Made by a program: the position numbers and the translations under genes. This document shows, piece by piece, positions 32,412 to 35,735 of a stretch of 64,000 nt of DNA. The stretch's first letter is position 1. Each line of letters opens with the position of its first letter. Source of the DNA: Proteiniborus ethanoligenes (GTDB lineage Bacteria; Bacillota; Clostridia; Tissierellales; Proteiniboraceae); assembly GCF_900107485.1 (NCBI RefSeq), contig NZ_FNQE01000015.1, positions 1 to 64,000 of the forward strand, given 5' to 3'. The notes below the pieces were generated by a model. That model saw nothing but the letters and a program-made list of their open reading frames with translations. It was not told the DNA's origin and did no database searches.

Positions 32412-33653
32412 ATGAAAAAAAGGGTAGTGATTACTGGTTTAGGAATAATAAGCCCAATAGGAACTGGAAAGGAAGAATTTCTCAATTCGCTTCTGGAAGG
32501 CAAAAATGGGATATCAAATATTACTAGATTTGATATAGATGGATTTAACACCACAATAGCAGGAGAGATAAAAGATTTTGATCCTGAAAAATATATAGAT
32601 AAAAAAGAAGCAAAAAGAATGGATAGATTTACCCAGTATGCAGTAGCAGCATCTAAGCTTGCTATAGAAGATGCAGAAATTGATATTGAGAAAATCAATA
32701 ATGATAGGTTTGGTGTTATTTTAGGCTCAGGTATAGGAGGCCTTGAAACCTTTGAAGAGCAGCATGAAAAGTTTTTAGAAAAGGGACCAAAGCGAGTTAG
32801 TCCATTTTTCATTCCAATGATGATAGGAAATATGGCTGCAGGTCAAATATCCATAATGTTTAAAGCAAAGGGAGTAAATGAAACTATAGTTACTGCTTGT
32901 GCATCATCAACAAATGCAATTGGCGATGCTTTTAGGATAATACAAAGAAATGATAGTGATATTATTATCACAGGTGGAGCTGAAGCCTCAATTACCCCTA
33001 TGGCTTTAGCAGGGTTTTCTGCTATGAAAGCATTATCTACAAATAATTTAAATCCTTCTAAAGCAAGTAGGCCTTTTGATAAAAATAGAGATGGTTTTGT
33101 AATGGGGGAAGGAGCAGGAATATTAGTTTTAGAAGAACTAGGCCATGCTTTAAATAGGGGAGCAAAGATTTACGGAGAAATAATTGGATATGGTTGCACA
33201 GCAGATGCATATCACATTACTACTCCTGCAGAAAATGGAGAAGGTGCTGCTAAAGCTATGAAAATCGCCTTGAATGATGCAGGTATTCAACCAAGTGAAG
33301 TGGATTACATTAATGCCCATGGTACATCTACATCTTATAATGATATGCTTGAAACTGCAGCAATTAAAGCAGTATTTAAAGAACATGCATACAATTTGAA
33401 AATTAGCTCTACCAAGTCAATGACAGGACATTTATTAGGAGCAGCAGGAGGAGTAGAGGCATGTGCATGTGCTTTGTCTATATCAAATGGATATATACCT
33501 CCAACAATAAATTATGAAACCATTGACGAGGAATGTGATCTTGACTATGTACCAAATAAGGGTATATTCCAAGATGTAAGTATTGCATTATCCAACTCAT
33601 TAGGTTTTGGTGGACATAATGCATCTATAGTTATAAAAAAATATATAGACTAA
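32412..33653 (+). CDS. fabF: Beta-ketoacyl-ACP synthase II
   Basis: The 413-residue elongating condensing enzyme has its nucleophile Cys163 in [13 protein letters not shown] and the two histidines in [11 protein letters not shown] and [13 protein letters not shown]. The C-terminal [12 protein letters not shown] loop is conserved. The gene lies 139 bases after acpP, so it may have an extra promoter, though none is clear. It closes the lipid cluster; fabZ and the acetyl-CoA carboxylase genes are not here. Confidence 0.97.
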
Positions 33654-33684
33654 AATTTAATTGCTAATAGGATAAAACAATTTA

Positions 33685-33734
33685 AACAGCCAAGACTCTT
33701 AAAACAATTGAGTCGAGGCTGTATAATCTTTTTT
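33685..33734 (+). terminator. Terminator after fabF
   Basis: ACAGCC (33686-33691) pairs with GGCTGT (33717-33722) and GACTC (33694-33698) with GAGTC (33710-33714), followed after six bases by TTTTTT. It ends the fatty-acid cluster. Confidence 0.75.
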
Positions 33735-33775
33735 GCAAACTTTAAATAGATTGAAATTGCTTTAGAATTGAGCTG

Positions 33776-33830
33776 TTGACCTTAGTTTAAAATAGTTTGC
33801 ATAATACACATGTTGTATAGTAAACTAAGG
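33776..33830 (+). promoter_or_regulatory. rnc promoter flanked by a 10-bp inverted repeat
   Basis: TTGACC (33776-33781) and CATAAT (33800-33805) with an 18-base spacer form a plausible promoter. A perfect inverted repeat CCTTAGTTTA (33780-33789) / TAAACTAAGG (33821-33830) brackets its -10 region, with a smaller ATACA/TGTAT stem inside. Confidence 0.5.
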
Positions 33831-33836
33831 TATGTG

Positions 33837-33885
33837 GGTATTATTATAGATGATTTAAAATAATTAAAACATCTATAATAATACC
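33837..33885 (+). promoter_or_regulatory. Long 16-bp hairpin in the rnc leader
   Basis: GGTATTATTATAGATG (33837-33852) is perfectly complementary to 33870-33885, with a 17-base loop. It lies in the expected 5' untranslated region of rnc, ending 31 bases before the ATG. No T-run follows, so it is not a normal terminator. It could be a substrate for RNase III itself. Confidence 0.6.
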
Positions 33886-33916
33886 TCTATAAATCTTTGA
33901 TTTGGAGGGCTAGTTA

Positions 33917-34648
33917 ATGAGATATGTAATTAATGCAGAGAGGATTCATTTGTTAAATGAAATTCAAAATAAAATAGGATATAAGTTTAGAAAAATCGAA
34001 TTATTAAACTGGGCATTGACTCACAGCTCTTATGCTAATGAGCATAAACGATATAAAATTACATACAATGAAAGATTAGAGTTTCTGGGAGATTCTGTAT
34101 TAGGACTTATAGTAAGCGACTACATTTTCGTAAAATATTCAGATTATCCAGAGGGAGATCTTACAAAACTTAGGGCAACTGTAGTCTGTGAACCTTCCTT
34201 ATCACATGTTGCAAAGGAAATTGGACTAGGAAAATATTTATTGCTAGGAAAAGGAGAAGAGGTAACTGGTGGAAGAGAAAGGGTTTCTATATTAGCAGAT
34301 GCTTTTGAGGCTTTAATAGGAGCTATATATATAGATGGGAAGTTTATTAATGCTAAAACTTTTGTGCTGAGATATATGACTGGAATTATCGAAAATGCAG
34401 TCAATGGAAGAGAATTATTCATAGATTATAAAACACAGCTACAAGAGCTTCTGCAGAAAAAAACAAAATCAAAGATTGAATATAAAATAGTATCAGAGGA
34501 AGGTCCAGATCATAATAAAACCTTTTACACAGAAGTGGTTGTGAAGAATAGGGTCTTAGGGAAAGGCTTTGGGAAAAGCAAGAAGGAAGCAGAGCAAAGT
34601 GCTGCAAAAGTAGCCTTAGAAGGAATGGAAATTGAAAATGAGCACTAA
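33917..34648 (+). CDS. rnc: Ribonuclease III
   Basis: The 243-residue enzyme cuts double-stranded RNA, including rRNA precursors. The catalytic signature NERLEFLGDSVLG has Glu52 and Asp59, and the second acidic pair is in ADAFEALIGAIYIDG. A C-terminal double-stranded RNA-binding domain (about 170-240) follows, ending in KSKKEAEQSAAKVAL. GGAGGG precedes the ATG. The order rnc-(radical SAM)-smc-ftsY is conserved in clostridia. Confidence 0.97.
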   Translation: MRYVINAERIHLLNEIQNKIGYKFRKIELLNWALTHSSYANEHKRYKITYNERLEFLGDSVLGLIVSDYIFVKYSDYPEGDLTKLRATVVCEPSLSHVAKEIGLGKYLLLGKGEEVTGGRERVSILADAFEALIGAIYIDGKFINAKTFVLRYMTGIIENAVNGRELFIDYKTQLQELLQKKTKSKIEYKIVSEEGPDHNKTFYTEVVVKNRVLGKGFGKSKKEAEQSAAKVALEGMEIENEH

Positions 34649-35735
34649 ACATCATATAATACCCATTTTTGTTCCTCATATAGGATGTCCTAATGATTGT
34701 ATTTTCTGTAATCAGAAAAAAATAGCAACAGATAAAACTAATGTTGATACTAAGGGTATTGCAAATACAATTAATAATTATATTTGCACTATTCCTGAAA
34801 CAAACGAAAAACTAGAGATAGCCTTCTTTGGTGGAAGCTTTACAGGTATAGATATGGATATTCAAAGAGAGCTTTTGGAAACAGCATATTACTATAAAAG
34901 AAATGGTTATGTTGACAGAATAAGATTGTCTACAAGGCCAGATTATATAGATGATAAAAGGTTACATCTATTAAAGCAATATGGTGTGGATATAATTGAG
35001 CTTGGTGTACAATCTATGGATCAAGAAGTCCTCTTAAATAGCTTTAGAGGACATAGCGATTTGGATGTAATAAATGCTTCTAGGCTAATAAAGGATTATG
35101 GATTTGTTTTAGGCTTACAGATGATGTTAGGACTTCCTACAAGTAACTATGTGAAAGAACTATTTACAGCTAAGCAGCTCATAAGCTTAAAACCTAGTAT
35201 TGTAAGGATATACCCGACCTTAGTCATAAAAGATACATTCTTGGAGAAAAAGTATTTTCGTGGAGAGTACATTCCATTGACCTTAAATGAAGCCATCATA
35301 ATATGTGTGGACTTATTAATGCTGTTTAATTATTATAATATTAATGTCATTAGAATAGGCTTACAGCCAACTGACAATATAGCTGAAAATAAGGATGTAG
35401 TTGCAGGTCCATTCCATCCTGCATTTAGACAATTAGTTGAAGAAAAAATATACAAAGAGATTCTAACCTCTTTTTTCAAAAACATTGGCAATATTTCCAA
35501 TAATATACAGGTTAAAATTAATAAAAAGGAGATTTCTAATTTTATTGGTCAAAATTCTTCAAATTTGAAGTATTTAAATGATTCATTTGGGATAGATAAA
35601 GTGAAAGTCTTAGGTGGGGACATAAGCAAATCTTCTTTTTATATAGAAAACAAAGACATGAACTATGAGATAAATATAAGAGAATATACTGAAAAATATT
35701 TGCTAAATAAGAAGTTAATTACAATTGACGATTAA
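34638..35735 (+). CDS. Elp3-like radical SAM protein
   Basis: The 365-residue protein has the radical SAM cluster motif Cys17, Cys21 and Cys24 (CPNDCIFCN) near the N-terminus and FFGGSFTGID, LSTRPDYID and LGVQSMDQEVL, as in the radical SAM half of Elp3. It has no evident acetyltransferase domain, so it is not full Elp3. It overlaps rnc by 11 bases and is likely translationally coupled. Clostridia often keep this gene between rnc and smc; its substrate is unknown, with RNA modification only a guess. Confidence 0.85.
   Translation: MSTKHHIIPIFVPHIGCPNDCIFCNQKKIATDKTNVDTKGIANTINNYICTIPETNEKLEIAFFGGSFTGIDMDIQRELLETAYYYKRNGYVDRIRLSTRPDYIDDKRLHLLKQYGVDIIELGVQSMDQEVLLNSFRGHSDLDVINASRLIKDYGFVLGLQMMLGLPTSNYVKELFTAKQLISLKPSIVRIYPTLVIKDTFLEKKYFRGEYIPLTLNEAIIICVDLLMLFNYYNINVIRIGLQPTDNIAENKDVVAGPFHPAFRQLVEEKIYKEILTSFFKNIGNISNNIQVKINKKEISNFIGQNSSNLKYLNDSFGIDKVKVLGGDISKSSFYIENKDMNYEINIREYTEKYLLNKKLITIDD

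Follow-up and report, generated by a model that had tools for sequence, protein, structure and literature searches.

A covarying hairpin in the RNase III gene leader of Proteiniborus ethanoligenes, a candidate site of autoregulation, and unrelated long stems at the same place in other Bacillota

The leader of rnc, the gene for ribonuclease III (RNase III), in Proteiniborus ethanoligenes carries a long hairpin that is confirmed to be real and not a product of chance, and its covariation among relatives indicates that it is an RNA structure under selection on the sense strand. By analogy with rncO of Escherichia coli, we consider it probable that RNase III cuts this stem, with which the rnc mRNA would begin, and that the stem serves negative autoregulation. 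A wider proposal, to which we give about an even chance, is that in Bacillota the rnc leaders have repeatedly acquired sequence-unrelated stems of 22 to 24 pairs or exchanged one such stem for another (as a minimum the f1, f19, and f40 types described below, plus single cases), so that an RNase III gauge would be kept by shape alone while the sequence turns over; the f1 group would add to this a promoter-like box of fixed spacing that is found only at rnc.

The DNA analysed, here called the window, comprises positions 1 to 64,000 of the forward strand of contig NZ_FNQE01000015.1 (assembly GCF_900107485.1; this genome is G000 below). The features referred to in the text are as follows.

33686..33734, + strand: terminator-like stem-loop with a T-run after fabF, apart from the hairpin (recognized by eye; the stem is also present in the fold)
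33796..33827, + strand: conserved box TTTGCAT-N15-TAGTAAACTA, specific to rnc; putative promoter
33833..33837, + strand: predicted transcription start, at or just before the stem, ~7 bases from the -10-like hexamer
33837..33852, + strand: 5' arm of the hairpin (sequence, fold, and covariation)
33854..33868, + strand: inner stem, 33854 to 33858 pairing with 33864 to 33868, and loop, 33859 to 33863 (sequence, fold, and alignment)
33870..33885, + strand: 3' arm of the hairpin (sequence, fold, and covariation)
33904..33909, + strand: ribosome-binding site GGAGGG, outside the stem (sequence)
33917..34648, + strand: rnc, ribonuclease III, 243 aa (TIGR02191 and Pfam domains)

An earlier note on this DNA had claimed a perfect 16-bp hairpin in the leader of the RNase III gene. 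Both parts of that claim hold: read directly, the arm GGTATTATTATAGATG (33837 to 33852) is fully complementary to 33870 to 33885, and the product of the downstream gene matches the TIGR02191 equivalog model with 269.6 bits (cut-off, 166.25) and contains the Pfam RNase III and double-strand-binding domains. Above the 16-bp stem are a 1x1 A/A mismatch (33853/33869), five further pairs, and a 5-nt loop, and the 3' edge of the hairpin lies 31 nt upstream of the rnc start codon. No other perfect stem in the window is as long (runner-up, 14 bp; loops of 3 to 40 nt), and the longest stems in 30 dinucleotide shuffles of the 64-kb sequence were 10 to 13 bp. The leader from 33806 to 33940 has a folding energy of -32.1 kcal/mol (z = -4.5), and none of 200 shuffles was equally low. 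The gene order is a fabF-like gene (named from its translation alone), the terminator-like stem-loop, rnc, a radical SAM gene, and smc.

Genes for RNase III were found in 98 of 100 relatives, and all 98 leaders were read. A stem homologous to that of the window, here called the f1 type, is located directly upstream of the ribosome-binding site in 17 genomes from eight families (f1, f6, f9, f10, f12, f16 with one of four, f17, and f18), the order of which is apparently Tissierellales. The earlier note had proposed looking for compensatory changes in relatives, and these are present: covariation is strong across alignment A1, which holds 16 leaders from the eight families (G010 was omitted, its hairpin being identical to that of G026). 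In A1, 94.0% of 352 cells are paired, compared with 82.7% in shuffles; both sides have changed in 14 of 22 pairs (1 of 500 shuffles as high); doubly changed cells number 44 against 14.8 expected (0 of 500 shuffles); and in the one weak measure among five, further pair types number 26 against 23.1 expected (25 of 500 shuffles), all of these being counts from shuffles that ignore relatedness and therefore not probabilities. Pairing falls to 41% to 47% when the partner is slid by 1 to 3 columns. Within the genus, one and the same pair is A-U in G000, G-U in G002, and G-C in G001. Across the f1-type stems, G-U combinations exceed A-C combinations by 26 to 7 excluding the outermost pair and by 37 to 7 including it, which means that selection acts on the sense RNA. 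This asymmetry, together with the promoter-like box described below, suggests that the leader stretch is transcribed. Long stems are missing from many relatives, being present in 0 of 13 genomes in f4, 0 of 6 in f13, 0 of 3 in f14, 2 of 13 in f5, and 3 of 14 in f7; the stem is therefore dispensable.

Some relatives have unusual rnc genes. The match in G062, an assembly of one contig, is split into two pieces 0.7 Mb apart (C1:999696-1000139 and C1:1707369-1707674) that correspond to the nuclease part and the double-strand-binding part. G075 and G095, both of genus g45 and listed as 99% complete, had no rnc match at E <= 0.001, RNase III being either lost or strongly diverged in these genomes. 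The rnc frames of G356 and G329 (both of family f41), G089, and G312 contain one internal TAG each; its occurrence twice in f41 points to a gene that is perhaps recoded or broken.

The f1-type stem is largely confined to rnc. At E <= 0.01, covariance model R1, built from the f1-type leaders, had matches in 20 of the order's 249 genomes, and in 17 of the 20 the match was in the rnc leader; all 17 were known beforehand from the reading of the leaders, and 16 were training sequences. Of the remaining three genomes, G056 and G062 were matched at a hairpin between two other genes and G134 within a gene. An R1-matched hairpin (46 and 44 bits) is kept in L126 and L127, from two genomes of genus g37, at ~1501 to 1558 between two non-rnc genes. 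Outside the order, at E <= 0.001 and excluding G000, there was one match in 391 genomes of the class and one in 398 genomes of the phylum (searches over more than 40 genomes used stricter filters, by which weak matches were possibly lost). These lie beside a putative cold-shock protein gene (G564) and after a putative prfB (G816), both genes being named from reading. This distribution marks the f1-type stem as an rnc element in part of one order. As for the genome of P. ethanoligenes itself, a BLAST search with the leader returned the self-match only, the exact 16-nt arm occurs just as the two arms of the hairpin, and 16 matches with up to two mismatches were found compared with 28 for the reversed control. 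Plasmids, searched with the leader as query, gave no match. A dispersed repeat or mobile element was discarded as a reading, there being no second copy in the genome.

Upstream of the stem is the box TTTGCAT-N15-TAGTAAACTA, which can be read as a -35 element TTGCAT (33797 to 33802), an 18-nt spacer, and a -10 element TAAACT (33821 to 33826) and which is predicted to act as a promoter. On such a reading, transcription would begin only a few bases from the stem; the likely start thus coincides with the stem or narrowly precedes it and does not follow 33885. The leaders of f9, f10, f12, and f18 have the same box-to-stem layout as the window. When 14 genomes were searched with TTTGCAT-N12-18-TAGTAAACTA, 12 had a single match each, at rnc and with N15, and the reversed pattern, used as a control in the 14 genomes, gave no matches. 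In the order, 32 of 249 genomes had a match to the pattern TTGCAT-N13-17-TAGTAAACT. The match was at rnc, and always with N15, in 18 of these and at another place in 3, and 11 were genomes with no rnc coordinates by which to place it. The box occurs with no f1-type stem in f8 (four genomes) and f11 (one genome), and f6, f16, and f17 have the stem but a degenerate box or none. An alternative promoter match at 33776 to 33805 was set aside in favor of the conserved box, as G001 and G002 do not share it. The conservation of the box is stricter than that of an ordinary promoter, and TAGTAAACTA is an inverted repeat that might have regulator binding as an additional role. A perfect 11-bp inverted repeat, ACCTTAGTTTA/TAAACTAAGGT at 33779 to 33831, spans the box and is not conserved in G001 and G002.

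Long stems of any sequence were sought with a scan of the 170 nt upstream plus 30 nt, in which the number of pairs minus twice the number of mismatches had to be at least 16. The scan tolerates two single mismatches and no bulges and therefore overlooks some stems, for example that of G027, one of the R1 matches. Of the 98 rnc leaders in the order, 39 passed, compared with 0.25 expected from shuffled leaders and with 0 of 30 leaders for each of the control genes tig and eno (in each case the 30 loci with the highest scores, out of 98 genomes matched for tig and 97 for eno). In the same genomes, rnc passed in 18 of 30 (tig set) and 14 of 30 (eno set), giving Fisher p values of 2e-7 and 2e-5, uncorrected for relatedness. 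Nearly all of the long stems (35 of 39) end within 60 nt of the aligned rnc start; those farther away may be terminators. In the class, 110 genomes outside the order had an rnc match, from which 88 leaders were taken and 22 were not; L165 and L181 were dropped since the rnc signature was not found, leaving 86 leaders scanned with a first rule and 85 with the second (one was too short), and 12 of the 85 passed, 10 of them with no T-run.

The long stems are not all of one kind. In f19, 10 of 14 leaders have a different stem of 24 pairs, in which 92.5% of 240 cells are paired and nine pairs have changed on both sides (0 of 500 shuffles), the structure having been derived from the same alignment as the count; G-U and A-C combinations number 18 and 4. 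Model R2, made from this stem, found 18 genomes among the 249 of the order (E <= 0.01), all 18 belonging to f19 and all 18 matches being upstream of rnc, and 8 of them were absent from the training set. In L315 the R2 score is higher on the opposite strand, and in L304 about 150 nt separate the stem from the gene downstream. Four leaders of f40, a family outside the order, have yet another stem in common, with 23 pairs. In these few sequences, 93.5% of 92 cells are paired, seven pairs have changed on both sides (4 of 500 shuffles), further pair types are not above chance (169 of 500 shuffles), and G-U and A-C combinations number 15 and 1. R1 had no significant match in the leaders tried from f2, f3, f7, f8, f11, f40, and the rest of f16 (best E, 0.33).

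The covariation analysis covered the f1, f19, and f40 types; further long stems are those of f3 and, as single cases, of G003, G008, G017, Listeria farberi, and Filifactor alocis. The stems of L. farberi (L385) and F. alocis (L344) lie 15 and 19 nt, respectively, before the aligned rnc start. They are among 7 of 79 named leaders with a stem score of at least 15; of the others, L323 has the f1 type, and the rest are 93 to 105 nt upstream or overlap the gene. The motif TGACGA in the 5' arm is common to stems of the distant families f3 (L088 and L089) and f40 (L158, L159, and L161), perhaps reflecting a common sequence preference or a distant relation. The earlier note had suggested that the E. 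coli strategy evolved or persists in this lineage. That three sequence-unrelated stems occupy the same place in different lineages favors repeated origin or rapid replacement over the persistence of one old element.

According to the mechanism that we propose, the rnc mRNA would start with an AU-rich stem of ~22 bp, amounting to two helical turns with one internal mismatch. RNase III would recognize and cut this stem in its own leader, probably near the middle, and the cut would strip the 5' structure, so that the message would keep a short open leader with a 5' monophosphate. Other nucleases would then degrade the rnc message, with a presumed loss of stability, and rnc would thereby limit its own expression, the negative sign being the expected one. 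RNase J and RNase Y are the candidate decay nucleases in this lineage. The ribosome-binding site is free in the folded leader, which argues for control via decay and not via masking. Unrelated duplexes of 22 to 24 pairs kept before the gene of this particular enzyme are what would be expected of substrates of a double-strand-specific nuclease. The RNase III of Bacillus subtilis is described as cutting duplexes of 10 to 36 bp with 2-nt 3' overhangs (PMC11780869), and the stem of 22 pairs falls within this range.

The stem could instead be a 5'-terminal stabilizing hairpin that shields the rnc mRNA from 5'-end-dependent decay with no special role for RNase III, since a 5' stem can stabilize an mRNA independently of this enzyme, and here it is probably at the extreme 5' end and leaves the ribosome-binding site free. 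We regard this as unlikely: three unrelated long stems before rnc, and none at the 30 tig and 30 eno loci, would be left unexplained, and a short stem would suffice for shielding, yet full two-turn stems are kept. More doubtful still is cutting by RNase III with a positive effect, through which the rnc mRNA would be better translated or more stable. The anatomy fits cutting of either sign, and cspA of Staphylococcus aureus is reported as a precedent (PMC3386247), but little would be gained from processing, since even before a cut the leader leaves its ribosome-binding site exposed, and the rnc cases described in the cited papers are negative.

The near-perfect inverted repeat adjoins the promoter-like box and could be a DNA element, such as a cruciform or a palindromic operator bound by a dimeric protein. 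This has very little probability, as pairing is kept while the sequence diverges and G-U exceeds A-C in the f1-type, f19, and f40 stems; the operator reading was dropped because such an asymmetry is not expected of a strand-symmetric site. A terminator or attenuator for readthrough from fabF would suit a stem placed between two genes, but it is highly improbable, because the stem is downstream of the promoter-like box, a separate terminator-like stem-loop is present at 33686 to 33734, and the statement of the earlier note that no T-run follows the hairpin was borne out, with no terminator-like sites found in 33000 to 35500. The stem-loop at 33686 to 33734 was likewise unflagged in that scan. 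A loose T-run rule (five T in eight) flagged 3 of the 39 long-stem leaders of the order, including that of P. ethanoligenes with its tail AATCTTTGAT, and a stricter rule flagged none of the 39. At the Rfam gathering score, no family was found at the window leader or in 11 other rnc loci, and the only match in the whole window was a TPP riboswitch (RF00059; 13621 to 13724, 74.4 bits). Matches at permissive thresholds, mostly to eukaryotic miRNA families, were sub-threshold and were judged to be artefacts of a simple hairpin. Short stems are common in AT-rich sequence, but chance or a mobile repeat is scarcely credible given the shuffles, the lack of a second copy, and covariation in eight families.

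Preferring negative autoregulation through the leader stem, we can compare the stem with known systems. As described in the available texts, E. coli RNase III binds and cuts its own 5' untranslated region, and the rnc message is destabilized (PMC8708148, PMC5371410), and for Sinorhizobium meliloti RNase III two lines of evidence for self-control are given (PMC6121014). Leader self-control has thus been described for E. coli, whereas in S. aureus and Streptomyces the reported self-cleavage of rnc, also with negative feedback, is at a site in the coding sequence and not in the leader (PMC3386247). For B. subtilis, the transcript encoding RNase III is reported to contain positions of putative endonuclease cleavage; the available text does not identify them as RNase III cuts in a leader stem and mentions no covarying leader family (PMC11780869). 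No description of such covarying rnc leaders was found in the accessible parts of the open-licence PMC literature on RNase III autoregulation, Clostridia, B. subtilis, Listeria, and structured-RNA surveys.

If the proposed mechanism is true, an enzyme that mainly reads shape would let its own control site drift freely in sequence, and the leaders would supply natural substrates and covariation data on recognition by RNase III of low-GC Gram-positive bacteria. Like rncO, the stem in P. ethanoligenes precedes the coding sequence for RNase III within the 5' leader; unlike rncO, it belongs to another phylum, is a single simple stem behind an rnc-specific promoter-like box, and is a predicted cleavage site. 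The working principle is already known from rncO; more novel is the proposal that unrelated stems arose repeatedly.
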